34,412 nucleotides of DNA. Origin: Balneolaceae bacterium. GTDB taxonomy: Bacteria; Bacteroidota; Rhodothermia; Balneolales; Balneolaceae. The stretch covers positions 1 through 34,412 of the forward strand of contig RECI01000315.1 of the NCBI GenBank assembly GCA_007694095.1, given 5' to 3'. Each line of letters starts with the position of its first letter. Positions within the stretch are counted from its first letter, which is position 1. This document shows, piece by piece, positions 1-14,934 of this stretch. Both the position numbers and the translations under genes were made by a program. The notes below the pieces were generated by a model. That model saw only the letters and a program-made list of their open reading frames with translations, was not told the DNA's origin and did not search any database.

Positions 1-2
1 AA

Positions 3-3000
3 TCGGTAAACAGGATTAGTGTAGTCTCAGAACATCAGGTATATCAAAACTGGATTTTTGCTACAGAAAAGGCCTATTCAGATAAGCAAAATGAAATTTC
101 TGTATATGATCGACTGAGTGGTATTTTTTTTGATTTATATCGGGAATCAAACAATGAGACTTACCTTAAATTTAGTTTGTATGAGGCGGGGATTAGAAAA
201 CGAGAGGAAATTATTGATAAACTTACTAAAGATGAGATAGAATCGGTGCAAAACCTAATCTCAATTTTGAGAAATGGTGTAAGTGATTCAACCCATTATA
301 TGATCAGGCCTTATTCATTCGATGACATATATCTCTTCTTGGATTTTGAAATTCCCCGCGAATTTCAACAAAATGCAAGAGAATTATTAGATTACTGGCA
401 TAGAAGATTACCTGAATACTACTCTGAAAGCTACTTAAAAGGCAGCTTTGTGACCCATTCCTTAATATTAGGGTATTATCAACTGGCCGATCATCAAAAA
501 GTATATGAAGTAAGCAGATACCTACAAAATACTAATCCCTTTCCAGATTCATCATTCTCGTTAGATTTATACCTGTTTTTATCTCACTCATTTAGATTAA
601 GTGGTTATTATCTTGACGCATTAAGATTATATGAAAGTATTTCAATCCCAATTGCCTTGAATTTAGTCAATATGCAACGTTATTATGAAATCAGAATGGA
701 CTATGCTTTGACTCAATTACGTATTGGAAATGTTAATGTAGCATTTAATGAATATCAAGATATCTTTTTAAATATTGAATATTTGACTGATTCAAGATAT
801 CGAACTGCCTTGCTTAATAATCTTGCCATTTGTTTCCTAAACACCGGAAGATTTGATCAATATGTAGAGTTTCAGCTTAATGCTTTCCATATTGCTCAAG
901 ATGATGAAAATATTGGACAACAGATAATGATACTTAGGAATCTCTACATTTTTTACCAGCGCCAAAACGAAACGGCAATCGCATATAGCTACCTTGAGCA
1001 AGCCCTTAATTTAGCGCGGGAAAAAGAATTATCAGCAGATATTGCAACTATACTTATAGCACTAGGTATATATAAACGCAGTTTAGAAGATGATTACACT
1101 CATGCTTTTGAACTTTTTTTTGAAGCACTTGACTACGCTGAGTATTACTCAATTTATCAACAAATATTTAACAGTTATTTTGAGATTGCTCAAACTTATA
1201 TGCTACTTGGAGATTACGAAAGCACAAATAAGTATATTGATATAATAATAGATTTAAGCCAATCCAGAAACGATAATCGGGGCTATGCCCTTTCTAATGT
1301 AATCCTTGCCAATTCATACATAAAATCCGGTAGAACAGAGCTTGCAAGAATAATTCTGTCTCAATTCACAGAACAAGATCTCCAGCAGCTTGTTTTCAAT
1401 TACAGGGTAATGGCTCACAATCTATCCATGCAAATTCAAATGGAAAACGGCAATCGTAAGGCTGCAATAAGCGAGAGTATTGAAATGATCGCTGAAATCA
1501 TCGACTGGCTCAGGGAAAGCAGCAATCAAGAAACCGGGCACATGCGGATGGATGAAGAATTTTCCGAAGCATTCCGGCTACACCTGAGCTTATTACAAAG
1601 TGAAAACAAAACCAAGGAAGCGTTAATAGCCATTGGGGATCTCAGAAACATTACCAGGTCCGGGTTTTATAACAACCCGCTTCTCAAATCAAAACTGCTG
1701 TCGGAAGAACAGTTGATCAGGGATTATAATTTAAGTAACCGTATCCAGCACCTGCGAAGTCAATATAGTATTGCATCTGGTGAACAATCAGTTTACCTGG
1801 CCAACGAACTACTTGCGGCAACATCGGAACGAAACAACCTGCTCAATCAGGCTATTCCGCATCTCCCGGAAACCTCTTATCACAGTACATTGCGGAACCT
1901 GCAGCGTCAGCTTCGCTCTGACCAGATGATCTTTTACATCTCGGTTTTTGATGGCCAGATTTTCAGGTTCTCGATAACAAGAAGAAATGTGGATATGAAA
2001 GTTTTTCCAAGGGATGACTACTATCTGGATCTGATCCACAACGCCATATCTTCCCTTGGTTACGGGCAAACCAACCTTCATGATTTACATAAAGTATACA
2101 CCACTTTTTTTGAAGGAGAAATTCCTGAGCGTATTAGTCATATCTATTTTATCCCTGACGGTCAGTTTTACATGCTGCCACTTGAAATTTTACCCATTAT
2201 TGAACCCCAGTCGAGTAACAGCTATGGTTCGGCAAATTATTTTGTGGAAAAGTACAGTGTAAGTTATGCCAACTCCCTATCTGAGATTGTACAAGGCCAA
2301 AAGACTCCAAAAAATGATTTTTATTTTGACATCGCAGGGTTTGGAATCAAAAGCTTCTCCGCTGCCGGCCATCCTGATTTAATGGATCTTCCATTCGGGC
2401 CTGAAGAAATTATCAACAGTAGCCGGGTAATGAATCAATTTTCAAGAAAAAAAATCTTCCTGGACTACGAAAGTACAAAAGAAAATTTCAGGGACGTTGC
2501 AGGCAAATCCAGAATATTGCACATTGCCACTCACAGTAAAGTAAATAATAATAACCCTCTTTTTTCACCACTCTACATGTACACTCGGAATGACAGTGAT
2601 ATTGAACTGGATGCAAAAACTGATGAAACCGACGGGATTATTTATGTGTATGAACTCTTTGACATGAATCTCAATGCGGATTTGATTTTCTTAAGTTCTT
2701 GTGAGTCAGGTACCGGTGGTTATCTACAAGGCACTGGTATTCTGGGCTTTTCAAGGGCATTTTCGTATGCTGGAGCAAAAAGCCTCTCATTAAACTTGTG
2801 GCCTATCCGGGATCAAACCGCAGCTGAAATCGCTGTTCGATTTTATGAAGGCCTGAACTCCGGCAAAAATAAAGCAGAGGCACTGCGAAACGCTCAAATT
2901 TCGTATCTGAATAAAAATAACAGTGACCCTTATTTATGGGGTGCATTTGTAATTTATGGCAACATCGATCCTGTGGTTTCAACTAATAGCCAATATCGGC

Positions 3001-3065
3001 TTGCATTTATCATTATTTTTGTTTTAATAGCAGCCTTTACAATACTATTCAGGTTTAATAAATAA
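3..3065 (+). CDS. TPR-CHAT envelope protease-like protein, 5' end cut by window edge
   Basis: A TPR-repeat protein with a C-terminal CHAT (caspase-HetF-associated) domain and one C-terminal membrane helix. The first ATG/GTG/TTG-type start is TTG at 177, but the frame is open back to base 3. Those 58 extra codons match the N-terminus of the next gene (a QNWIFATEKAY segment against KNWIIIVENAY), so the gene starts outside the window, probably with a signal peptide as in its neighbour. The CHAT domain spans about 1900-2975. It has the expected histidine in an IATHS motif (codon at 2532) and cysteine in an SSCESG motif (codon at 2700). A hydrophobic helix ends the protein, followed by a short basic tail. 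This predicts a periplasmic TPR-CHAT body tethered to the inner membrane. The TPR half is visibly more AT-rich than the CHAT half. The substrate is unknown; protease activity is inferred from the family dyad. Confidence 0.88.
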   Translation, partial: SVNRISVVSEHQVYQNWIFATEKAYSDKQNEISVYDRLSGIFFDLYRESNNETYLKFSLYEAGIRKREEIIDKLTKDEIESVQNLISILRNGVSDSTHYMIRPYSFDDIYLFLDFEIPREFQQNARELLDYWHRRLPEYYSESYLKGSFVTHSLILGYYQLADHQKVYEVSRYLQNTNPFPDSSFSLDLYLFLSHSFRLSGYYLDALRLYESISIPIALNLVNMQRYYEIRMDYALTQLRIGNVNVAFNEYQDIFLNIEYLTDSRYRTALLNNLAICFLNTGRFDQYVEFQLNAFHIAQDDENIGQQIMILRNLYIFYQRQNETAIAYSYLEQALNLAREKELSADIATILIALGIYKRSLEDDYTHAFELFFEALDYAEYYSIYQQIFNSYFEIAQTYMLLGDYESTNKYIDIIIDLSQSRNDNRGYALSNVILANSYIKSGRTELARIILSQFTEQDLQQLVFNYRVMAHNLSMQIQMENGNRKAAISESIEMIAEIIDWLRESSNQETGHMRMDEEFSEAFRLHLSLLQSENKTKEALIAIGDLRNITRSGFYNNPLLKSKLLSEEQLIRDYNLSNRIQHLRSQYSIASGEQSVYLANELLAATSERNNLLNQAIPHLPETSYHSTLRNLQRQLRSDQMIFYISVFDGQIFRFSITRRNVDMKVFPRDDYYLDLIHNAISSLGYGQTNLHDLHKVYTTFFEGEIPERISHIYFIPDGQFYMLPLEILPIIEPQSSNSYGSANYFVEKYSVSYANSLSEIVQGQKTPKNDFYFDIAGFGIKSFSAAGHPDLMDLPFGPEEIINSSRVMNQFSRKKIFLDYESTKENFRDVAGKSRILHIATHSKVNNNNPLFSPLYMYTRNDSDIELDAKTDETDGIIYVYELFDMNLNADLIFLSSCESGTGGYLQGTGILGFSRAFSYAGAKSLSLNLWPIRDQTAAEIAVRFYEGLNSGKNKAEALRNAQISYLNKNNSDPYLWGAFVIYGNIDPVVSTNSQYRLAFIIIFVLIAAFTILFRFNK

Positions 3066-3398
3066 AAACTTCATCAAGTTGGCTTTATTTCTATGCCTCT
3101 GGCTATCAATATAATACTGGATGTCGATATAATTCTTGAGATCTTCAGAATTAATCATCGGCGCCCTTTGATTATGCATGACATTTTCAAGGGTATAATA
3201 AATTTGACTACTCTTCAATTTTTCTCTGTTTGCAATCATGGTATTGCAATCATCGGAATCGGTAATCTGGTCTTCAATGCAGTTAAACTGAGAGAGACAT
3301 TTCAAATACTGAAAAAATATCAAGCGGAAAAATTGATGTAGCCGATGGATAAATAAGATGGGTAACGCCGTTGAATAGTATTCGAAACTCACATACAT
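3045..3398 (-). CDS. small unrecognised ORF, doubtful
   Basis: A 117-codon ORF starting with ATG, antisense to the gap between the two CHAT genes and overlapping the last 21 bases of the first. The product is rich in Asp, Asn, Lys and Ile, with no signal peptide or motif that I recognise. A shorter plus-strand ORF covers the same bases, so at least one of the two is a shadow. The minus-strand product looks more like a soluble protein because it has more charge and fewer hydrophobic runs. It may be a small hypothetical gene, a decayed remnant or chance. Confidence 0.22.
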   Translation of the reverse strand: MYVSFEYYSTALPILFIHRLHQFFRLIFFQYLKCLSQFNCIEDQITDSDDCNTMIANREKLKSSQIYYTLENVMHNQRAPMINSEDLKNYIDIQYYIDSQRHRNKANLMKFLFIKPE

Positions 3399-3535
3399 AC
3401 AGCAACCTCAAGATGCTTTATGTATGAACGTCTAATTGAAGCTAGGATGGCCGATGAATTACACACATAAAAAACTAGTGAACTAGCGGAATCAGAAGAA
3501 AGCTTATTGAAAAAATTATTAATACTATAGTTCTC
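3066..3535. other. intergenic gap between the two CHAT genes
   Basis: About 470 bases separate tandem paralogues that might be expected to sit closer. The gap holds the doubtful minus-strand ORF. It also has an 8-bp inverted repeat (CATACATA at 3392-3399, TATGTATG at 3419-3426) and an AT-rich stretch before the second CHAT start that could carry its promoter. I see no clear terminator. Confidence 0.5.
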
Positions 3536-6500
3536 ATGATGAGGTTATTTTTTTTCTTTTTTGTGATCATGTTCTCTTTTTCATTTGCAACCTGCAATGT
3601 TAATGCTAAAGAGATGCTAAATCAGGATTACCAGAATGAAGTGCTAAAAAACTGGATAATCATAGTTGAAAATGCATATACCTTACCCGATTCATCCGAA
3701 AACGGCACACCAGGCTATAACATAGCCAGTGAACATTTCTTTGATCTTTACAAAAAAAGCGGGGATGCAATCTACCTGAACTTTGCCCTGCATGAAGCCG
3801 ACAGGGGAAAAAGAGAGCAAATTATCAATGAGCTCGGAATCTACGAACGGAAAGTTGTTTCACATATCATTCAAAAACTGAATAACGATATTTTACCGGA
3901 TAATTATTTTGACCTTACTCCTTTCACTGTCGCCAATATTTACCATTTTTATAATATAACGATAGATCAAGGGCAAGAAGCAAAAGCCAAACTACTACTT
4001 GATTATTGGACAAGTCTATTACCAAACATATATGAAACAGATGATCATTTAATCATTTTCAAGATTCACTCATTGGTCAGTGGATACAACCAACTAGGCG
4101 ATTACCAAACGGCATACAGATTAGGTGAATATTTAATTGAAAAACAACCCTTTCCAGCTTCACATTTTGCCGTTGATTTTTTTTTAACATTAGATTTTTC
4201 TGCCAAATCATCGGGATATTATGTAAGCTCATTGAAAATTCTTCAAGAACAATTACTCCCTTTGTCAGAATTTCTGGATGATAAATATATTCAGGCAATC
4301 ATCAGGATGAATTATGCAATGACTTTATTTCGAATCGGAAATATTACAGAAGCTTTAAAGGAAAACGAACAAGTATTCTCAAATTTGGAGTACCTGCCAA
4401 ATCCGAATGACAAGGCCGCCATTTTTAACAATCTTGCCATTATTTATTTAAATACGGGCAGGTTCAATCAGTATCTGGATTTTCAATTAAATGCACTTCG
4501 AATTGCAGATAAAGAAAATAATTACAGTCAACAAATTCTGATACTTCGAAATCTGTACATTTTTTACCGACGCCAAAGCGAAACAGAACAGGCATTTAAC
4601 TACCTTGAAAAAGCCCTTCATTTAGCATCTGAAAAGAATATTACTGAAGAATTAGCGCCATTACTGATCTCTCTTGGCATTTACAAGCGAACTGTTGAGG
4701 ATCAGCCAGCAGATGCATTAGATTATTTTTATGAAGCGCGCAATCATGCAATCAATTACTCCAATTACCGTCAGATTTTCAATAGTCATTTTGAAATTGC
4801 GATGACCTATCTGCTGCTTGAAGATTTTGAAACGGCTGAAAAATATATCAATGATATCATCAATTTAAGCCAATCAAGAAATGATAACCTCGGCTATGTA
4901 CAATCACATATAACTCTTGCCAATTCATATATAAAATCGGGAAGATTAGAGGAAGCTAATACCATTCTGTCTCGATTTACAGATAGTGACTTCCATCAGC
5001 TTACATTTGAGTTCAGGGTGTTGGTTCACAATATCTCATTACAAATAAAAATGGAAAATGGCAGATATAAAGATGCTTTAAATGAAAGTTCAGAAATGAT
5101 CTCTGAAATCATCGATTGGCTGAGAGAAAGCAGCAACCAGGAAACCGGTCATATGCGGATGGACCAGGAATTTTCCGAAGCTTTCCGGTTGCATCTCAAC
5201 CTGTTATTCCGGCTCAACAGGCCGAAGGAAGCTTTATACACTATTGGTAGCCTGAGAAATATTTCCAGGTCTGGATTCTATAATAACCCGCTCCTGAAAT
5301 CACAAATGTTGACCCAGGAAGAATTAATTCACGACTATCAGCTTAGCGACAGAATCAGGCAGCTCCGCGGGCAATATGCAACGGCAGCCGCTGAACATAA
5401 AGTTTCTGTAAACAACGAATTGATTACTGCTATATCAGAGAGAAACCATCTGCTAAATCGTGCTATTCCCCAATACCATGATACCCCTTATGAAAACGCC
5501 CTTCGTAAACTCCGCCGTCAGCTTCGTTCTGACCAGATGGTCTTTCACATCTCGGTTTTTGACGGGCAGATTTTCAAATTTGCAATTACACGAGGGAAAA
5601 TGGATATGAAAGTCTATCCAAAAGATGACTATTATCAGGGGCTGATTAAAAATGCCACATCTTCTTTAGGCAATGGCAATACAAACCTGAAGGATTTACA
5701 CGAAGTTTACACCACTTTTTTCGAAGGGGATATCCCAAAAACGATAACCCATATCTACTTTATCCCTGACGATCACTTTTACATGCTGCCGCTCGGAATT
5801 TTACCTGTATTAGCCCCGGAATCGAGTGACAGCTACAGAACTACATCCTATTTTATGGAAAGATACAGTGTGAGTTATGCCAATACCCTGTCCGATATCG
5901 TGAATAAACGTGGTATTAAAAATGATGATTTTTATTATGAGATGGCGGGTTTTGGAATCAGTAATTTCTCTGATGCCGGGCATCCCAGCTTAACTGATCT
6001 ACCATTCGGACCTGTTGAAATTATACGCAGTGCAGAGGTATTGGATCATTTAACTGAAAAGAAAATATTTCTGGAAAATGAAAGCACCAAAGAAAATTTC
6101 AGGGAAATATCCGGCAAATCCAGAATATTACATATAGCAACCCACAGCAAAGTGAATAACAATAATCCGCTTTTTTCAGCGCTCTATATGCATAACGGAC
6201 TATCTAACAACGCCAATGGAGAATTGACACCCGATGAACATTCCGGCATTATGTATGCCTATGAACTCTTTGACTTAAACCTGAATGCGGATTTAATATT
6301 CCTAAGCTCGTGTGAATCCGGATCCGGAAGTTACTTACAGGGCACCGGTATATTAGGTTTTTCCAGGGCATTTTCCTACGCAGGAGCACAAAGCCTCTCC
6401 TTAAATTTATGGCCTGTAAGAGACCGAACCGCCGCTGAAATAGCTGTCCGCTTTTATGAGGCTCTGAACGAAGGAAAAAACAAAGCCGATGCACTCCGAT

Positions 6501-6712
6501 CCGCTCAAATGTCATATATGAATCATAACAACAGCGATCCTTACTTGTGGGGTGCATTTGTACTTTATGGCAATATTGACCCTGTTATTTCAACCAAAGG
6601 CCAACATCACTATTTATATATTATGTATTTTACGTTAATGTTCGCCTTAATTGTACTTTTCAGATTATATAAAAAAAGGAATCTTGTCAGAAATATAATT
6701 CAAAGACCTTAA
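3536..6712 (+). CDS. TPR-CHAT envelope protease-like protein, second tandem copy
   Basis: A 1058-residue paralogue of the preceding gene. It has a hydrophobic signal peptide at residues 3-20, helical TPR-like repeats at about 150-600, a CHAT domain at about 655-1016, a membrane helix at about 1026-1046 and a basic tail. The catalytic pair is H870 (IATHS) and C926 (SSCESG). A cysteine at residue 20 near the end of the signal could alternatively mark a poor lipobox. CHAT domains are caspase/separase-like cysteine proteases, often fused to TPRs that sense a partner. Here the body should face the periplasm. The two paralogues are most alike from the block around residue 525 (IIDWLRESS) onward and more different in the TPR region, as if they share a target chemistry but sense different partners. 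It starts with two consecutive ATGs; the first is used here. It converges on the TPR/receiver pair. Confidence 0.9.
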   Translation: MMRLFFFFFVIMFSFSFATCNVNAKEMLNQDYQNEVLKNWIIIVENAYTLPDSSENGTPGYNIASEHFFDLYKKSGDAIYLNFALHEADRGKREQIINELGIYERKVVSHIIQKLNNDILPDNYFDLTPFTVANIYHFYNITIDQGQEAKAKLLLDYWTSLLPNIYETDDHLIIFKIHSLVSGYNQLGDYQTAYRLGEYLIEKQPFPASHFAVDFFLTLDFSAKSSGYYVSSLKILQEQLLPLSEFLDDKYIQAIIRMNYAMTLFRIGNITEALKENEQVFSNLEYLPNPNDKAAIFNNLAIIYLNTGRFNQYLDFQLNALRIADKENNYSQQILILRNLYIFYRRQSETEQAFNYLEKALHLASEKNITEELAPLLISLGIYKRTVEDQPADALDYFYEARNHAINYSNYRQIFNSHFEIAMTYLLLEDFETAEKYINDIINLSQSRNDNLGYVQSHITLANSYIKSGRLEEANTILSRFTDSDFHQLTFEFRVLVHNISLQIKMENGRYKDALNESSEMISEIIDWLRESSNQETGHMRMDQEFSEAFRLHLNLLFRLNRPKEALYTIGSLRNISRSGFYNNPLLKSQMLTQEELIHDYQLSDRIRQLRGQYATAAAEHKVSVNNELITAISERNHLLNRAIPQYHDTPYENALRKLRRQLRSDQMVFHISVFDGQIFKFAITRGKMDMKVYPKDDYYQGLIKNATSSLGNGNTNLKDLHEVYTTFFEGDIPKTITHIYFIPDDHFYMLPLGILPVLAPESSDSYRTTSYFMERYSVSYANTLSDIVNKRGIKNDDFYYEMAGFGISNFSDAGHPSLTDLPFGPVEIIRSAEVLDHLTEKKIFLENESTKENFREISGKSRILHIATHSKVNNNNPLFSALYMHNGLSNNANGELTPDEHSGIMYAYELFDLNLNADLIFLSSCESGSGSYLQGTGILGFSRAFSYAGAQSLSLNLWPVRDRTAAEIAVRFYEALNEGKNKADALRSAQMSYMNHNNSDPYLWGAFVLYGNIDPVISTKGQHHYLYIMYFTLMFALIVLFRLYKKRNLVRNIIQRP

Positions 6713-6805
6713 GATGAGATACGATCTTCTTTATATGCCCATGTATTAACCGAACCAGAAGACGAAGTATAGATAAGTAAATTTGACTGCGATTTAAAAC
6801 CAGGT

Positions 6806-7567
6806 TTACAGGCTCTCAAGTGCCATTTTTGCTACCCTGCTAAATGATCCATCTGCCTCAATCACCTTAATTATATTCTCCATGGCTTCTTGTTTCATTC
6901 CAAGCTGCAGTTGTGTATTGGCAAGATACCAATATGATTTTTCCCTCAACACCTTTCCGGGATTCATATGCAGTATCCGGTCGAATGTTTCATGGGCTTC
7001 CTGATAATAGCCTGCATTATAATATATTGTCCCTTTCACAATATAGACATCAACTGCCTCATTCGAGTCTAATATTTCAACTTCAATTGATTTGAGCAGA
7101 TCCAAAGCTGAAGTTATTTCACCGGCAGATGAAAATGAAATGGCTGAGTTGAGTATACTTTCGAGATTCGTTGTTACATCAGCAGATCTCTCAATATTAA
7201 ATTCGATCATGGCAATCGGGCTGAACTCTGGCTCTGATACCTGGTTGCTGAATATATTGAAAAGAACACCCATACTAAGTAAGAGTATGGCAGCGGCTGC
7301 AAGATAGTGTTTCACATAACCACCAAATACCTTCTTCGAACTCATTGGCAGAATAACCGTTTCATTCTCCCTTCCTGTTTCTTCATTTGTAGAGGAAAAT
7401 GCACCTTCATGCCCCATTTTTTTGAGAGTTGCAAGGGTTTGTAAATATTCAAGGTCACTGGGATTAGCAATTAAATGTGCCCATAGATTGTCAACTTCCT
7501 GTTCGGATAAACTCCCCTCAACAAAATTGTGGATCAGGTGTAATATGTGTTCGTTATTTTTTTTCAT
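6806..7567 (-). CDS. one-pass TPR protein with anti-sigma-like layout
   Basis: A 253-residue protein. Residues 1-50 form a helical cytoplasmic head (FVEGSLSEQEVDNLW, then a spaced leucine pattern) like the N-terminus of FCB anti-sigma proteins, but without zinc-binding Cys/His. One membrane helix lies at about 87-109. Residues about 130-253 hold two or three TPR-like units (YYNAGYYQEAHETFDRIL is typical), which should lie in the periplasm. Its ATG overlaps the TGA of the upstream receiver gene in an ATGA junction, so the two are probably translationally coupled. The periplasmic TPRs face the same compartment as the CHAT proteins, so an interaction is plausible but inferred. No sigma-factor gene is next to it; the receiver protein takes that position. 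Function unproven. Confidence 0.8.
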   Translation of the reverse strand: MKKNNEHILHLIHNFVEGSLSEQEVDNLWAHLIANPSDLEYLQTLATLKKMGHEGAFSSTNEETGRENETVILPMSSKKVFGGYVKHYLAAAAILLLSMGVLFNIFSNQVSEPEFSPIAMIEFNIERSADVTTNLESILNSAISFSSAGEITSALDLLKSIEVEILDSNEAVDVYIVKGTIYYNAGYYQEAHETFDRILHMNPGKVLREKSYWYLANTQLQLGMKQEAMENIIKVIEADGSFSRVAKMALESL

Positions 7568-8166
7568 AATTCGAATTTCCTGCTCTTATTTTTTTCCAGG
7601 TGTTTATAGATTTCGTGCAGTGTGCCAAGCAGGTAAGATTTGTCGAATGGTTTTTGAATATATGCGTTTATCCTTGAGGAAATACATTGCTTTCTGACCT
7701 GACTGTACTCATTGGTAGTCAATGCAATGATAGGAATAGACTTGCTATTGTTATCTTCTCTTATCATACTACTGGCTTCAAACCCGTCAATACCGGTTCC
7801 CAGGTTAATATCCATTAATATCAAATCAAAATTTTTCTCTTTAAGTGCCTTAAGTGCCTGCTCAGCCGAATCAACACTTTCCACTTCAAATTCATTTTTT
7901 AGAAAAATGGATACCAGTAACCTGATTTGTGGGCTATCGTCTACGTGAAGAAGTTTTGGTTTATTTCTTTCACTTTTCGCTTCACTTTTTCCATGTCGAA
8001 ATAATGACAAACCACTCCTGATATTTGGCCTTATCCCATTTGAAGAAGCAAGTTCATCCGGATTAAGATATAATTCATATGATGAAGGTACATCCAGTGA
8101 ATGTGCTGCTGAACCATTCATGTAATTATAAGTAAATGCCTTGGGAAATAATACACACGTTTTCAT
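7564..8166 (-). CDS. stand-alone receiver protein with N-terminal extension
   Basis: A 200-residue response-regulator receiver. About 68 residues of unrecognised, low-hydrophobicity sequence precede the domain at 70-190. All phosphorylation residues are present: acidic pair D76/D77 (HVDDS), phosphoacceptor D119 (LILMDINLG), T150/T151 (ALTT) and K172 (QKPF). There is no DNA-binding or enzymatic output domain, so it should act by protein contact like CheY or Spo0F. It overlaps the following TPR membrane protein by four bases. No histidine kinase is encoded in the window. It could relay phosphorylation to, or sequester, the cytoplasmic head of the TPR protein; this is inferred only from the coupling. 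The extension may be partly untranslated if a later start is used, but the only in-frame ATG I see is at residue 16. Confidence 0.85.
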   Translation of the reverse strand: MKTCVLFPKAFTYNYMNGSAAHSLDVPSSYELYLNPDELASSNGIRPNIRSGLSLFRHGKSEAKSERNKPKLLHVDDSPQIRLLVSIFLKNEFEVESVDSAEQALKALKEKNFDLILMDINLGTGIDGFEASSMIREDNNSKSIPIIALTTNEYSQVRKQCISSRINAYIQKPFDKSYLLGTLHEIYKHLEKNKSRKFEL

Positions 8167-8387
8167 TATAAAACTTTTTATTAATTATCACGACTATATA
8201 AAGGATGCATGAAAAGCAGATTTGTTACATTTTTTTTGAAATTTTTTTTAGCTCAATATTTATGAGTTCGTGGCTGGTAATTATTTGATTAAATATTTTT
8301 ACCAATCGCCCCCAACTGTTGGCAAAACCTTAAAAGTAAATTAAATTGACTATATATTTACTTTTATCGAATTATTGTCAACAGGCT

Positions 8388-8876
8388 ATGTCAGAACTAA
8401 AAAAAGCCGCTCTTGCATTCTTATCCAATCAAAATATTGCTGTTGTGGGTGTTTCTTCAAAGGGCGATACCGCTGCAAATTTTATTTATAAAAAATTGAG
8501 GACGAGCGGTTATCGGGTATTTCCGGTTAATCCGAATGCGGATATCGTTGAGGGAGACAAATGTTATAAAAGCCTTACTTCCTTATCCGGTATTATTGAT
8601 GGTGTAGTTATTGGAACGCATCCTGATGTAACCCCTCAAATCATAAGGGAATGCGCTGAAATTAATGTCGGGCAGGTATGGATTCATCGCTCAATCGGGC
8701 AGGGTAGTTATCACCCTGCAGCCATTGAACTGGCCAAAGAGTTAAACATTTCCTTAATCCCCGGCGGCTGCCCTTTGATGTTCAATGAACCGGTTGATTT
8801 TGGTCATAAATGTCTCAGATGGTTTCTAATGCGCAGTAAAAAAGAGAAAACCCCGATCGGTTTTCATCTCAAATGA
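8388..8876 (+). CDS. CoA-binding (YccU-like) Rossmann protein
   Basis: A small cytoplasmic protein of 162 residues in the CoA_binding_2 family. It has a Rossmann start (NIAVVGVSSKGDTAANFIYKK), a PVNPNADIVEG block and the conserved tail motif GGCPLMFNEP. I start it at the ATG at 8388, because the preceding in-frame TTG at 8346 would add residues unlike the family and the family begins close to the Rossmann strand. An AT-rich divergent gap separates it from the receiver gene. The physiological role of these proteins is not established; CoA or nucleotide binding is inferred from the fold. Confidence 0.85.
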   Translation: MSELKKAALAFLSNQNIAVVGVSSKGDTAANFIYKKLRTSGYRVFPVNPNADIVEGDKCYKSLTSLSGIIDGVVIGTHPDVTPQIIRECAEINVGQVWIHRSIGQGSYHPAAIELAKELNISLIPGGCPLMFNEPVDFGHKCLRWFLMRSKKEKTPIGFHLK

Positions 8877-8970
8877 TTTTTATCGGATAAATTGCAGTGG
8901 TATCATCAGGAACGAAATATTCAAATCTATGATTTACCCGAATTGTTGAAATAATTCGGCTCTTGTACTG

Positions 8971-9948
8971 ATGCGCAGAAATATCTTCTTATTTTCATTT
9001 CCGGCTGCTACGATTCTTACAGGATGGGCTTTTTATATGGCTCATGGAAATTTATGGCTTCTTTTTTCGGATAACTGGTTTATGACGGCTACCATGGTTT
9101 TCGGATCGTTCATTGCGGGGGCTAGTTCGGAGGGTGGCGGAGCCATTGCCTTTCCTGCCATGACCCTGCTATTCAATATTGAACCAGAGGTTGCCCGTAA
9201 TTTCAGTTTTGCCATTCAAAGTGTGGGTATGACATTTGCCGCCATCTGGATTTTTATTTCAGGGATAAAAATTGAGAAAAACTACCTGCTGCTTGCAGGT
9301 GCGGGCGGTTTTATCGGCATTATTTTCGGGTCTTACTTTATCGTACCACTCATCAAGCCCGATTACGCCAAAATGATGTTTGTTTCATTTTGGCTGAGCT
9401 TTGGTATTGCACTGGCAGTGGTTAATTTCATTAATCAAAGAAAAAGTATTGAAAAACTACCGCATCTCTCATTTATACAAAAATCAGAACTCTTTTTTGT
9501 TGGAACTCTTGGTGGCGTATTCAGTTCGGTTTTAGGTAACGGACTCGATATATGCACGTTTTCTTATGTTGTAATGAAATATGGCCTTTCGGAAAAAATC
9601 GCTACTCCCACTTCAGTGATACTTATGGCATCGAACGCCATAATTGGATTTATAATACATCTTTTTTTCCTGGAAACGTTTCAAACCGAAGCCTTTCATT
9701 ACTGGCTGGTCTGTATTCCTGTGGTGATTTTTGGTGCACCGCTTGGAGCCTACACCATTACATTAATAGGCCGCAAATCTATTGCTGGTATTCTGATTCT
9801 TATCATTATTGCACAGTTTATTACAGCAATATTTGTTATAAAGCCCGGCATGGATCTGATCCTTTTTTCAACACTCATTTTTGTGATAGGGATATTCATA
9901 TTCTTTGTTATAACAAAAAAGAGATATACAGGTTCAGGAGTTAATTAA
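8971..9948 (+). CDS. TauE/SafE-family membrane permease
   Basis: A polytopic protein of 325 residues with about eight to nine hydrophobic helices. It has the family's glycine-rich segment near the start (FIAGASSEGGGAIAFP) and a second one halfway (FVGTLGGVFSSVLGNGLD). TauE/SafE members move sulfite, sulfoacetate or related small anions across the inner membrane; the substrate cannot be read from sequence. The 3' end overlaps the convergent second TauE/SafE gene by eight bases. Confidence 0.85.
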   Translation: MRRNIFLFSFPAATILTGWAFYMAHGNLWLLFSDNWFMTATMVFGSFIAGASSEGGGAIAFPAMTLLFNIEPEVARNFSFAIQSVGMTFAAIWIFISGIKIEKNYLLLAGAGGFIGIIFGSYFIVPLIKPDYAKMMFVSFWLSFGIALAVVNFINQRKSIEKLPHLSFIQKSELFFVGTLGGVFSSVLGNGLDICTFSYVVMKYGLSEKIATPTSVILMASNAIIGFIIHLFFLETFQTEAFHYWLVCIPVVIFGAPLGAYTITLIGRKSIAGILILIIIAQFITAIFVIKPGMDLILFSTLIFVIGIFIFFVITKKRYTGSGVN

Positions 9949-10750
9949 ATAACTGTATAATCATTAATGCTGCAATGGTAAGGATTAAAATACCGAAGCC
10001 AATTTGAATAGCCAGCTGCGATACCGAATGACCGATTCTGACACCAGCGAAACCTCCGGTGAATGCACCGATAATTAGTGGTAAACCCGATCCAAAATCC
10101 ACATAACCCAATGTAAATGGTGTAATACCATCAGGTTGCCCGGCCAGCAGTGCAAACTGCATCCAGCCGGATAACGAAATCAGCACAATAGCCATTGAAG
10201 AGATGCTCACTGCCTTTTTTAGCCTGAGTTTATAGGCCAGGTTCATGATAGGTACAAGAACGATTCCACCTCCCACACCTGCCAGTGCCGCAATAAATCC
10301 ACCTGTAGTTCCAGCCCCCACAGCTTTGGGAATACTGATTGTTTTTTTAGTAACCAATAGTGTGATATCATTCTTTCTCCGGCGAAAAAAAAGTATGGCA
10401 ACAAATACTAAAAGAATTGAAAATAAAGCTACAAATACATCTTCGGTATAATATGGCGATGTAACAACTTGCTTGCCTGCAAATACCCCAATGGTTCCGA
10501 ACAAACCTACAATTACACCCTGCTTCCAGTAAAAGTTTTTCTCAGATCGCTGCTGAATGGAACTGCTTATTGAAGCGGTAAAGGTGCAAAATAATGACGT
10601 TGCAATAGCCCAGGTTGCCGGATTTTCTAATCCAACTGATGAAAACAGAATAAAAAGAATGGGTGTAAACAATATCCCGCCTCCAACACCGAATAAACCT
10701 GCTACTGTTCCTGCTATTAACCCGCAAAATATCAGAATAACAAAGAGCAT
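9941..10750 (-). CDS. TauE/SafE-family membrane permease, second and distinct
   Basis: 269 residues, about eight membrane helices, and a classical two-repeat TauE/SafE layout: GLFGVGGGILFTP near residue 19 and AALAGVGGGIVLVP near residue 155. It is shorter than, and not closely similar to, the convergent 8971-9948 permease, so this is not a recent duplication. Its ATG overlaps the TGA of the upstream PhzF gene by one base (TGATG), indicating translational coupling. Substrate unknown; sulfite or another organosulfur anion is the family guess. Confidence 0.87.
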   Translation of the reverse strand: MLFVILIFCGLIAGTVAGLFGVGGGILFTPILFILFSSVGLENPATWAIATSLFCTFTASISSSIQQRSEKNFYWKQGVIVGLFGTIGVFAGKQVVTSPYYTEDVFVALFSILLVFVAILFFRRRKNDITLLVTKKTISIPKAVGAGTTGGFIAALAGVGGGIVLVPIMNLAYKLRLKKAVSISSMAIVLISLSGWMQFALLAGQPDGITPFTLGYVDFGSGLPLIIGAFTGGFAGVRIGHSVSQLAIQIGFGILILTIAALMIIQLFN

Positions 10751-11532
10751 CAGATGAAAATTTCACCAATCAGGTAGGTTACGGCCTGCCCGCCTATTTC
10801 AACCCGATCACCTTTATCCACACACTCTATATATCCACCCCGTGCAGAAAGCTGGCGTGCGGTGAGAAACTTTTTCCCCAACCGCTTTGACCAAAAAGGA
10901 ATCAGTACTGTATGGGCGGAACCAGTTACCGGGTCTTCCGGCACACCAAGCGATGGAGCAAAAAAACGGCTCACAAAATCAATACCGGTTTCAGAAGATT
11001 TAGCTGTAATAATCACCCCTCTTACATCCAGACTTTTTAAAATCGAAATATCCGGTTTCATCTTTTTTACAATTTGATCATCATTTACCAACACAAGCAG
11101 ATCTGTATGTAATCCCGTATAGATGGGAATGGTGCCAATAGACTCTGGCAGCAATTTCGGTACAGGAATGGGTTTGGGTGGTTTAGCAGGAAAATTCAAC
11201 CAGTAAAATAAATCTTTTTTTGTAACAGTTAACTTTCCGCTTATGGATTGAAAGATTATCTCCTCAGCGTAAAATCCAAGATGTTTAAATAATACATGGG
11301 CAGCTGCAAGTGTGGCATGTCCGCATAAATCAACTTCGGTTTCGGGTGTAAACCAACGTATATCAAAGGATTCATCCTTATTTTCTTTGAAAAATACCGT
11401 TTCGGAAAGATTATTTTCAGCAGCAATTTGTTGCATTATTGATACATCAATCCATTTTTTTAATGGCACAACGGCAGCCGGATTTCCTTTAAAAACCGAA
11501 TTTGTAAAAGCATCTGCCTGGTATATTTTCAT
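10750..11532 (-). CDS. PhzF-family isomerase/epimerase-like protein
   Basis: 260 residues, matching PhzF-family length. Motifs: QADAFTNSVFKGNPAAVV at the N-terminus, the catalytic glutamate of NLSETVFF at residue 44, EVDLCGHATLAAAH around 66-79 and PEDPVTGSAH in the second lobe. The family has a two-lobed diaminopimelate-epimerase fold. PhzF itself isomerises dihydro-hydroxyanthranilate for phenazines, but most members, including this one, stand outside phenazine clusters and have unknown substrates. It is first in a two-gene unit with the downstream TauE/SafE permease, so a shared small acidic substrate is possible but inferred. It is divergent from mutS2. Confidence 0.9.
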   Translation of the reverse strand: MKIYQADAFTNSVFKGNPAAVVPLKKWIDVSIMQQIAAENNLSETVFFKENKDESFDIRWFTPETEVDLCGHATLAAAHVLFKHLGFYAEEIIFQSISGKLTVTKKDLFYWLNFPAKPPKPIPVPKLLPESIGTIPIYTGLHTDLLVLVNDDQIVKKMKPDISILKSLDVRGVIITAKSSETGIDFVSRFFAPSLGVPEDPVTGSAHTVLIPFWSKRLGKKFLTARQLSARGGYIECVDKGDRVEIGGQAVTYLIGEIFI

Positions 11533-11637
11533 TTTTTATTGTGAATGTAATGATTCTTGCTGTGTGTATGAACGGTTTTTTTGGTTGTCACGATTGCCGG
11601 GTGTTATTTTCATGTAAAGTTCACGACATTTCATCTT

Positions 11638-14043
11638 ATGAGCAGTAAACTAATCATATATCCGCCAACGGCGATCAATAAAATCGGTTATGATACCATT
11701 CTGCGGGCAACACTAAGAAAGTGTTATACACCGTACGGAAGGGAGTATCTTGAACGGTTATGGGCTTCTGCCGACAAAAATATTGTTCAGGAACGTCTGG
11801 CATGCATTTCCGAATGGTTAAAATTACTGGAAAGCTCATCGCATCCCCTGTCGGCTGCCGAAGATATCCGGGAGGATATTAAGGAATGCCGGATTGCAGG
11901 AAGTGCCCTGCCGCTGGAAAGTTTTGTTGCGATCTTGCAAAATGCCCGTATAGCCCGCATTATTAAACAATTTTTCTCAAAACAAGAGGGCAACTATCCT
12001 CATTTAGAACAAATCGCAGATTACTTTGTTAACCTGAAACCGCTTGAAGATGCAATCCAAAAGGTTGTAACAGAAAGAGGGGATTTGCGGGATAATGCAA
12101 GTTCAGAATTAAAAAGCATTCGCAACAGAATTAACGGCGAGAAAAACAGGCTACGGGATACTATACAGCGTGTGATGAAAAGAGTTGTTCAACAAGGAAT
12201 GGCTTCTGATGAAGGCCCAACAATACGAAGCGGGCGCATGGTGATTCCGATACAATCAGAATTTAAACGCAAAGTAGACGGCTTTATCCATGATGTATCT
12301 GCAAGTGGCCAAACCGTTTACATTGAGCCAGTTGAGGCACTTCAGATCAATAATGAAATCCGGCAGCTCGAAGCACTGGAACAACGTGAAATAGACCGCA
12401 TTATCCGGGAACTAACATCCATTGTAAGCAGTCATGCTGACTCTTTATTATTAAATACAGATCAGCTCGCATTAATGGATGCAATTCATAGCCGGGCACA
12501 AATTGGCCTCGACCTCGATGGCAGTGTGCCCCAGCTTTCAACAGATATGTCACTTCAGCTCATAAATGCCCGCAATCCAAACCTGGCACTGAAAAATCAA
12601 AAAACACTGGATACCGAACCGGTCATTCCGTTAAACCTGAAACTTGATAAGGATGAGCTTGGGCTAATCATTACAGGGCCAAACGCCGGCGGTAAATCTG
12701 TAGCGATGAAAACGGCAGGCTTGCTGAGTTACATGTTACAATGCGGTTACCCCATACCTGTTCAGCCGGATTCAGTACTACCAATTATTAACGGAATTTT
12801 TGTTGATGTTGGCGATGACCAATCTATTGAAAATGATTTGAGCACTTTTTCGTCACGGTTGCTATGGATGCGAAACACCCTGTCAAAACTAATGCCGGGC
12901 TCACTTGTATTAATTGATGAAGCAGGCGCGGGAACAGACCCTGAAGAAGGGGGGGCTTTATTCCAGGCGTTTGTGGAAGAAGTGATCAGAAAGAACGGAC
13001 GAGTAATTGTAACTACCCATCACGGATCATTGAAGGTGTTTGCCCACAGTCATAAAAATGTGGTTAACGGAGCTATGGAATTTAACCAGGAAAACCTCTC
13101 TCCAACCTACCATTTCAAAAAAGGAATACCCGGCAGCAGTTACGCATTCGAAATTGCCGACAGAATGAAACTGCCTGAATCACTGATGCGACAAGCAAGA
13201 GAGTTACTTGGGGAAAAACGCGATAGTATGGGTGATCTACTGATCAGCCTTGAAAAAAAGATGCAGGAATCTGATGAAATCACTGCTGATTACAAAAGAC
13301 GCCTTGCCGAGATTGAAAAACGGGAACGCACGCTTGCCGAACAAACATCCAATATTGAAAATAAACGAAAAAATATACTCGAAAAAGCCTTCCGGGATGC
13401 CGAAGAAATACTGAAAACTGCGAACCGCAGAATTGAAGAAGCTGTTGAAAAAGTTGTAATGGAAGGGCGTGAAGACAAGGAGAAAATCCGTGACGCAAGG
13501 AAAAGTATTGATGAAGTAAAACAGGAAATACGCACAGGTAAAAAAGAGTATGAAAATGAGGTTGAGGAAGAAATTGTCAGAAGAAATGAAAAACCCAAAG
13601 TGGGTGATTATGTTGTGATTGGCGATGGAAACAGCATCGGTGAACTTGCGGAAATCTCTGGCAATAACGCCACTGTAATGATGAATGGTATGCGCATCAA
13701 ATCCAAACTGAACAAACTGGTTAAGACAAATCCGCCAAAGAAAAAGGAAAAGACGTATTTCACCCGTAGTTTTACAACTACGGGCGACATTGATTTATCT
13801 GTTAAACCAAGAATTGATCTTAGGGGAATGCGTGGTGATGAAGCCATAAATGAACTTACCGTTTACCTGGACAAGGCAATTGCCCGTGGACTCAAATCGG
13901 CTGAAATCATCCACGGAAAAGGTGAAGGGATTCTACTTAAACTTGTTCATGAATATCTTGAAAGCAGAAAGGAAGTGGAATCCTACGACATTGCACCCTG
14001 GGAAAGCGGTGGTACAGGCTGCACAGTGGTAAATCTTAAATAA
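11638..14043 (+). CDS. mutS2: MutS2 endonuclease/ATPase with Smr domain
   Basis: 801 residues from the ATG at 11638; a TTG at 11581 would add a non-homologous leader, whereas the family starts close to the helix beginning SSKLIIYPPTAINKIGYD. It has core and clamp helices, Walker A GPNAGGKS at 347-354 and Walker B LVLIDEAGAGTDPEEGG at 423-439. A long charged coiled coil at about 505-640 follows. A C-terminal Smr nuclease domain from about 725 carries DLRGMRGDEA and HGKGEGIL. MutS2 lacks the mismatch-recognition domain of MutS. In other bacteria it suppresses homologous recombination and/or rescues collided ribosomes. The hydrolase gene follows after 12 bases, so they are probably co-transcribed. 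Confidence 0.96.
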   Translation: MSSKLIIYPPTAINKIGYDTILRATLRKCYTPYGREYLERLWASADKNIVQERLACISEWLKLLESSSHPLSAAEDIREDIKECRIAGSALPLESFVAILQNARIARIIKQFFSKQEGNYPHLEQIADYFVNLKPLEDAIQKVVTERGDLRDNASSELKSIRNRINGEKNRLRDTIQRVMKRVVQQGMASDEGPTIRSGRMVIPIQSEFKRKVDGFIHDVSASGQTVYIEPVEALQINNEIRQLEALEQREIDRIIRELTSIVSSHADSLLLNTDQLALMDAIHSRAQIGLDLDGSVPQLSTDMSLQLINARNPNLALKNQKTLDTEPVIPLNLKLDKDELGLIITGPNAGGKSVAMKTAGLLSYMLQCGYPIPVQPDSVLPIINGIFVDVGDDQSIENDLSTFSSRLLWMRNTLSKLMPGSLVLIDEAGAGTDPEEGGALFQAFVEEVIRKNGRVIVTTHHGSLKVFAHSHKNVVNGAMEFNQENLSPTYHFKKGIPGSSYAFEIADRMKLPESLMRQARELLGEKRDSMGDLLISLEKKMQESDEITADYKRRLAEIEKRERTLAEQTSNIENKRKNILEKAFRDAEEILKTANRRIEEAVEKVVMEGREDKEKIRDARKSIDEVKQEIRTGKKEYENEVEEEIVRRNEKPKVGDYVVIGDGNSIGELAEISGNNATVMMNGMRIKSKLNKLVKTNPPKKKEKTYFTRSFTTTGDIDLSVKPRIDLRGMRGDEAINELTVYLDKAIARGLKSAEIIHGKGEGILLKLVHEYLESRKEVESYDIAPWESGGTGCTVVNLK

Positions 14044-14055
14044 GTAAATCAACCA

Positions 14056-14934
14056 ATGAAATCTGCTCTAATACTGCTATTCGTATTTTTTCTTCTCCCG
14101 GATTCCATGATTGCCCAGCTAGTGACTTGGCGTGATATTATTGAATCTGACCTGCCGGAACCAACCGCAAGAATTCATTATGGTGAAGACTCTCTGCAAT
14201 TTGGTGATTTATGGCTTCCAAAAAATTCCGAGCCTCACACCACCATTATCCTGATTCATGGTGGTTGCTGGCTGAGTATTTACCCTGGAGTGGAGTTAAT
14301 GCACCTGATGGCAAATGAACTGAGGAATCATGGTTTTGCGGTCTGGAATATTGAATACCGCAGAATTGGCCATGATGGAGGCGGCTACCCCGGCACGTTT
14401 CTTGATGTAGCCAAAGCGGCAGATTTTCTACAAACGATTGCCGAAGAGTATGGGCTAAATCTTAATCGCGTGATTTCATCAGGCCATTCGGCCGGAGGTC
14501 ATCTGGCAAGCTGGCTTTCAGTCCGAAAGAATATCCCCTCAAATAGCGTTCTATACTCTCCCAACCCGTTACATGTGCACAAGGTGATTTCTTTGGCGGG
14601 TATTAACGACCTTGAACGTTTTGGTTCATATGGCTCTTCATCATGTGGGCGAGATACAATAGACAACCTGGTTGACAAAAAGAACCGGGGCGATAGTGCA
14701 TTCCGTGATACATCACCAATAGAGCTTCTCCCTTTTGATCTTCCATTTGTAGAGATAAGTGCAGCCTTCGACGCCCCTGTCCCTCCATTTTTTGGTTATC
14801 ATTTCGTAGACACTGTAAAAAAAGGGGGCGATGAAGCAATACTGATTTTACAGACAGAAGCCGGACATTTTGAAATGATTGCACCCTGGAGTAAAGAATG
14901 GAAAGAGGTTTTGGAAGTCTTTCTGTCATTCTGA
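14056..14934 (+). CDS. secreted alpha/beta-hydrolase (esterase-like)
   Basis: 292 residues. A signal peptide at 1-20 ends in an MIA-QL site. The body is an alpha/beta hydrolase with the oxyanion motif HGGCW (68-72), nucleophile S145 in GHSAGG and the likely catalytic histidine H271 in AGHFEMI; the acid is probably an aspartate near 235-240. The HGGxW plus GHSAGG combination fits carboxylesterase or kynurenine-formamidase-like enzymes. Substrate unknown. It follows mutS2 by 12 bases. Its stop codon lies inside a GTCATTCTGA tract that forms an 8-bp inverted repeat with 14975-14982, so the last residues may have been supplied by an intergenic repeat. Confidence 0.87.
   Translation: MKSALILLFVFFLLPDSMIAQLVTWRDIIESDLPEPTARIHYGEDSLQFGDLWLPKNSEPHTTIILIHGGCWLSIYPGVELMHLMANELRNHGFAVWNIEYRRIGHDGGGYPGTFLDVAKAADFLQTIAEEYGLNLNRVISSGHSAGGHLASWLSVRKNIPSNSVLYSPNPLHVHKVISLAGINDLERFGSYGSSSCGRDTIDNLVDKKNRGDSAFRDTSPIELLPFDLPFVEISAAFDAPVPPFFGYHFVDTVKKGGDEAILILQTEAGHFEMIAPWSKEWKEVLEVFLSF

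Follow-up and report, generated by a model that had tools for sequence, protein, structure and literature searches.

A predicted sigma factor circuit in Balneolaceae that may be controlled by periplasmic separase-like CHAT proteases

Regulated proteolysis of an anti-sigma factor has been described for RseA/DegS and for RsiW (cited in PMC10028731), and two further systems come closest to the locus considered here. Craspase, of type III-E CRISPR systems, comprises a protease with TPR and CHAT domains (Csx29), an inhibitor (Csx30) and a sigma factor (CASP-sigma), with RNA as its trigger (PMC10028731). In Myxococcus xanthus, the protein DdvA (structures PDB 8rot and 8rw5) is the anti-sigma factor of the extracytoplasmic function (ECF) sigma factor DdvS (PMC4374960), which controls an antiphage island (PMC12288465). 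The layout is known in outline only from this one CRISPR system and this one Myxococcus protein. Here we describe a locus with related parts from Balneolaceae, whose members are described as marine and salt-lake bacteria. It lies at the start of the window, by which we mean positions 1-34,412 of contig C21, in a genome of 4.56 Mb (labelled G000).

We consider it reasonably probable, although well short of certain, that this locus is a self-regulating ECF sigma circuit under envelope proteolysis, with a CHAT protein as the site-1 protease. At rest, a TPR membrane protein would hold the sigma factor through its cytoplasmic head. An envelope signal, possibly passed on by small lipoproteins, would activate the periplasmic, membrane-anchored, separase-type TPR-CHAT protein, which would cut the exposed linker of the anti-sigma factor after Arg127 and leave a general intramembrane protease to complete the release. 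The freed sigma factor would then raise the lipoprotein-CHAT operon as positive feedback, the receiver/anti-sigma operon as a reset, and a small number of genes elsewhere; among these are short AraC-type regulators, which head a contractile injection cluster in some genomes. Composition, gene order, conservation, topology signals, shared promoters and a cut-site motif can all be seen directly in the sequences. The parts of the locus are as follows, with the evidence for each in brackets.

Window 1-55, no strand: contig end, matching the end of the reverse-complemented contig C73 (55-bp exact overlap).
Window 3-3065, plus strand: CHAT1, a predicted periplasmic TPR-CHAT protease with a C-terminal transmembrane anchor, 5' end open at the contig end (open reading frame, Pfam).
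Window 3536-6712, plus strand: CHAT2, with signal peptide, TPR solenoid, caspase/separase-like domain and C-terminal transmembrane helix (open reading frame, Pfam, model).
Window 6806-7567, minus strand: gene for the predicted TPR membrane anti-sigma factor (open reading frame, Pfam, model, conservation).
Window 7388-7567, minus strand: cytoplasmic head of the anti-sigma factor, residues 1-60, predicted sigma-binding part (model, zf-HC2 scan).
Window 7247-7318, minus strand: transmembrane helix of the anti-sigma factor, residues 84-107, N-terminus inside by charge bias (model, topology).
Window 7184-7207, minus strand: linker motif IEFNIER|S, residues 121-128, where CHAT is predicted to cut after the invariant Arg127 (alignment, PMC6858450 consensus).
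Window 7564-8166, minus strand: receiver protein with a ~65-aa N-terminal extension (open reading frame, Pfam, alignment).
Window 8204-8229, minus strand: ECF-type promoter TGTAACA-N14-GCATC of the receiver/anti-sigma operon (motif search).
C73:125: start of CHAT1 (open reading frames, coordinates converted on contig C73).
C73:200-418 and C73:474-692: two lipoprotein gene copies (open reading frames on contig C73).
C73:782-810: promoter before the lipoprotein-CHAT operon (motif search).
C73:983-1558: ECF sigma gene (open reading frames on contig C73).

The original prediction recognized two tandem CHAT paralogues with intact His/Cys dyads and membrane anchors, facing a receiver gene and a TPR gene that overlap at ATGA, and each of these elements is confirmed in place. 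The CHAT1 gene, however, is cut by the contig end at the start of the window, so the rest of the locus was hidden. Contig C73 was found via the sigma gene of a relative (72% identity to the G000 match), and we read the 55-bp identity between C21 and C73 as an assembly overlap by which the window would continue leftward. The signal peptide of CHAT1, which is not in the window, comes from C73. In the joined order a leftward sigma gene is followed by the two lipoprotein genes, CHAT1, CHAT2, and then the convergent anti-sigma and receiver genes.

Both CHAT proteins match the Pfam CHAT family (PF12770; 3e-48 and 4e-48 for CHAT1 and CHAT2) as well as TPR repeats, and both carry the motifs IATHS and SSCESG. 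With the catalytic residues His870 and Cys926 of CHAT2 invariant across 38 relatives, this conserved dyad predicts His/Cys cysteine peptidases. A signal peptide is found in 27 of 28 family members and a C-terminal transmembrane segment in all 28. The CHAT2 model (predicted local distance difference test, pLDDT, 84.9; predicted template modelling score 0.77) resolves a TPR solenoid (residues ~30-643), a caspase/separase-like domain (~660-1015) and a transmembrane helix (1021-1055). Its closest structure is Csx29 of Craspase (7y9x_B; Z 28.3, 561 residues aligned, root-mean-square deviation 8.8), followed by separases at Z 26. DdvA (Z 21.6) gives the best Foldseek E-value (4.8e-13), and its match, over about residues 184-1012, spans both the TPR and the CHAT regions. 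The tandem arrangement noted in the original prediction is real here, but it is seen in G000 and its closest relatives G011 and G018, and is a lineage-specific duplication. Most loci carry one CHAT gene, and the pair was rejected as a general feature.

Conservation was assessed in relatives from a public genome set of Balneolaceae and other Balneolia, including Rhodohalobacter, Fodinibius/Aliifodinibius and Balneola, with linkage counted over loci that have enough flank. The original prediction had named neighbourhood conservation as a check, and this is pronounced across Balneolales: the CHAT and TPR genes are convergent in 48 of 50 loci, a linkage far beyond chance. The sigma gene lies divergently upstream of CHAT in 23 of 25 loci, and a lipoprotein gene stands between the two in 23 of 25; one more, in L175, is pushed slightly past the distance cut-off by an inserted gene and would make 24. 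Across 118 sampled genomes from the phylum, strong anti-sigma matches all fall within Balneolales. Assignment of the sigma factor relies on a profile of 27 relatives that matches ECF SigE (2q1z) at 4e-8, on NCBIfam sigma-70 models that match the G000 protein at 3.5e-9, and on several relatives that match Sigma70_r2 and r4.

Most genomes also hold a second system, in which a sigma gene and a paralogous TPR gene (TPR2) are always adjacent and co-directional, and a CHAT gene (CHATb) sits beside them or elsewhere. This system has no detectable lipoprotein of the family found here and no promoter of the first type. This sigma/TPR2/CHATb set (L094, L096 and L097) has its own (D/E)xxR|S linker motif and a different promoter.

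The TPR membrane protein is modelled (mean pLDDT 86.5) as three to four N-terminal helices, a transmembrane helix, an unstructured linker and TPR helices. Charge bias places the head on the cytoplasmic side in 33 of 35 of these one-pass anti-sigma proteins, and Leu20, Leu28 and Trp29 of the head are invariant. The anti-sigma-like character that the original prediction gave to this head gains support because TPR2 always follows an ECF sigma gene and because seven of the 35 heads match zf-HC2 (best 0.0014; the window protein is not among the seven). We infer that the head binds the sigma factor. A fold search with the anti-sigma model returned mostly TPR domains and gave no information on the head.

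Between the membrane and the TPR domain, the linker varies everywhere save for one island, P-x-x-x-I-E-x-(D/E)-x-x-R-S. Arg127 is the sole invariant residue of the linker (35/35), with Asp or Glu at P4 in 27 and Ser at P1' in 28 of the 35 proteins. Among 45 matches to [DE]xxR[SGTA] in these proteins, 26 sit on the Arg127 column, and (D/E)xxR|S recurs in 11 of 12 anti-sigma proteins of the second system. The separase consensus is ExxR, with cleavage after Arg and an acidic residue often just upstream (PMC6858450). It is mainly because of this conserved separase-type motif that we propose CHAT as the site-1 protease and Arg127-Ser128 as its target; both cleavage after Arg127 and the signal that would set it off are inferred. 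Six anti-sigma proteins from other phyla lend weak support: two (L237 and L253) have [DE]xxR, and five have an Arg before Ser or Gly that is about as far from the membrane. The original prediction placed these genes in a single envelope pathway in which the CHAT enzymes cut or sense through the TPR protein; action of CHAT on that protein is supported by the linkage, the shared promoter and this conserved site.

The lipoprotein might offer CHAT a different substrate. It is a product of ~70 aa encoded directly upstream of CHAT in one to four copies at nearly every locus, with a signal peptide, a suitably placed Cys that in most is followed by (A/S)xxT(D/E), an acidic middle and a conserved C-terminal tail that is clade-specific (for example RIRPD); it matches nothing above cut-off in Pfam or NCBIfam. 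The two G000 copies (locus L155) are tandem, 98% identical and located between sigma and CHAT1. Near-identical tandem copies of this kind seem to break assemblies at L155, and contigs in G011 and G016 end likewise. It is conceivable, but in our judgement unlikely, that CHAT trims the lipoproteins and not the anti-sigma factor, whose TPR domain would bind the resulting tails; the TPR protein would then sense a signal that consists of the lipoprotein. The proximity of the two genes under a common promoter at nearly every locus and the conserved tail would fit this, as would Foldseek matches of the anti-sigma TPR domain to domains solved with bound peptides. However, the lipoproteins have no conserved Arg/ExxR site, the separase-type site is in the anti-sigma factor, and the second system has sigma, TPR2 and CHAT with no such lipoprotein.

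The composition of the circuit and its regulon are well supported by sequence. In almost all loci examined, the lipoprotein gene is preceded by TGTAAC and, precisely 16 bases further on, CATC or ACTC (general ECF promoter form TGTAAC-N16-(C/A)(A/C)TC), with slightly different -10 elements in G003 and G015. In the window, the same element also precedes the receiver gene by ~60 bp, and it stands before 26 of 51 receiver/anti-sigma or anti-sigma operons versus 16 of 4800 random windows; at the motif level, this is the pattern of an autoregulated promoter. The form TGTAACA-N14-GCATC occurs at five sites in G000, two of them at this locus, whereas reversed-pattern controls give zero to one per genome in 29 genomes. 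Requiring NTA behind CATC leaves a single site, since the receiver promoter has CATCCTT.

The motif is also found before prepilin-like genes in several genomes, before short AraC-type regulators (HTH_18) and before a lipoprotein gene. In 11 of 20 AraC-type loci checked, the element is no more than 400 bp upstream, and the -10 variant at this trans gene matches the one that the respective genome has at its circuit locus (GCATC for this genus, ACTCC for G055, ACTCT for G030). The AraC-type gene, with the sigma promoter before it, heads contractile injection genes in three genomes: G000 (L330, C85), G011 (L331, C331) and G013 (L332, C129). These comprise a sheath gene and, at a greater distance, genes for tube, hub, PAAR spike and a gp25-like baseplate (all listed in L332). 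The sigma factor appears to activate its own circuit and, in some species, a syringe-like injection machine; the evidence for the latter consists of the promoter motifs in these three genomes, together with the promoters of orthologous regulators elsewhere. Separately, at L285 (G000:C22:4513 onward) a sigma-type promoter lies ~390 bp before tandem prepilin-like genes (MGQQQLLLVILVTII...), an arrangement with a long leader that is repeated in G005, G010, G011 and G016.

A promoter of this kind before the lipoprotein-CHAT operon would also suit a scheme in which the sigma factor has CHAT as an output, such as a stress or cell-damage protease that acts on other substrates, while the receiver or a different protease inactivates the anti-sigma factor. 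In other systems, peptidases of the CHAT type serve as effectors. We nevertheless judge this scheme quite improbable, given that CHAT, a sigma factor and a membrane anti-sigma factor are linked in several phyla and that DdvA, a named anti-sigma factor, matches both the TPR and the CHAT regions of CHAT2. Specifically, CHAT, sigma and one-pass anti-sigma genes are linked in KSB1, Ignavibacteria and Bacteroidetes, and because their gene orders differ, the association should be functional and not inherited synteny. These neighbourhoods (L237, L243, L246, L253, L238 and L239) probably represent a widespread undescribed class.

The receiver (Pfam Response_reg, 2.6e-23) has phosphorylation residues Asp77, Asp119 and Lys172 that are invariant in 30 sequences, and a search within it for an output domain found none. 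It adjoins the anti-sigma gene in 22 of 48 loci and is absent beside the other 26, although sigma, lipoprotein and CHAT are conserved there. It is thus an optional extra of the circuit and, where present, would probably tune the sigma/anti-sigma contact via phosphorylation, a role that, like that of the lipoprotein, is put forward conditionally. The further idea of the original prediction, that the receiver replaces the sigma factor and relays the CHAT signal directly, could draw on its overlap with the TPR gene and its phosphorylatable sequence, but it is refuted to the point of being extremely improbable by the sigma gene beyond the CHAT genes and by the many loci that lack the receiver. An orphan paralogue of the receiver, 44% identical, is encoded at L095:3621-4136 (G000:C264) without an anti-sigma neighbour. 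Downstream of the locus, genes for a CoA-binding protein, two TauE/SafE-type transporters, PhzF and MutS2 occupy window positions 8346-14934, and part of this gene order reappears beside the receiver in relatives. A PADLOC scan for defence systems gave nothing informative, and a search for RNA families in the window found none.

Several observations weigh against the proposed circuit of envelope proteolysis. Half of the receiver/anti-sigma or anti-sigma operons (25 of 51) have no strict promoter match, single sigma proteins are weak against Pfam, and the CHAT gene of the second system is often far from its sigma/anti-sigma pair. In this genus, CHAT itself belongs to the regulon predicted for the sigma factor, as would also be expected of an output, and Arg127 could be structural. 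Moreover, the site at which Csx29 cleaves Csx30, between residues 427 and 429, lies in a loop that has no essential residues (PMC10028731), so separase-type specificity need not hold.

A more specific picture is attractive, but we hold it only as a tentative possibility on the doubtful side. It combines a periplasmic separase-like site-1 protease acting at (D/E)xxR|S with a multi-copy lipoprotein sentinel, in a circuit that deploys an injection system in part of Balneolaceae and is a CRISPR-free, envelope-facing counterpart of Craspase. More broadly, sigma factors under CHAT control might represent a general way of signalling, and Craspase may have been recruited from it. Such a design is suggested because a chromosomal, membrane-anchored version is kept through an order and because related linkages exist in other phyla. 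Craspase had earlier shown a TPR-CHAT protease cutting a sigma inhibitor, but as a CRISPR curiosity. The present locus offers a specific bond to test (Arg127-Ser128), names a promoter, predicts a small regulon and brings to light a lipoprotein family that had been overlooked; the circuit may also show how some bacteria decide on building contractile injection machines.

The statement in the original prediction that no system of this exact composition had been described still holds for the exact set, but Craspase and DdvA are close precedents. As in Craspase, there is a TPR-CHAT protease of the same fold, an ECF sigma factor and an inhibitor that would sequester it. Csx29, however, is activated by target RNA via Cas7-11 and is not known to have an export signal or membrane anchor, whereas the protease here has both a signal peptide and an anchor. 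The inhibitor here crosses the membrane once and carries a TPR domain, and the lipoproteins and receiver are additional. A scan of ten window proteins named no Cas protein, and no dedicated genome search for Cas7-11 was made. The likeness to DdvS/DdvA lies in the pairing of an ECF sigma factor with a transmembrane anti-sigma factor whose structure matches the CHAT model, yet DdvA is a single chain with a CHAT-like region, whereas protease and anti-sigma factor are separate genes here. The proposed sequence of envelope signal, cut membrane anti-sigma factor and sigma release resembles RseA/DegS and RsiW, except that the site-1 protease would be a CHAT/separase-like cysteine peptidase and not a DegS-type enzyme. 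With eukaryotic separase the protein shares helical repeats, a caspase-like fold and, by prediction, an ExxR cleavage consensus (PMC6858450), but it is bacterial and exported, and its proposed substrate is an anti-sigma factor. The system would work like Craspase and DdvA yet is a member of neither, as its protease carries an export signal and is a different protein from the anti-sigma factor.

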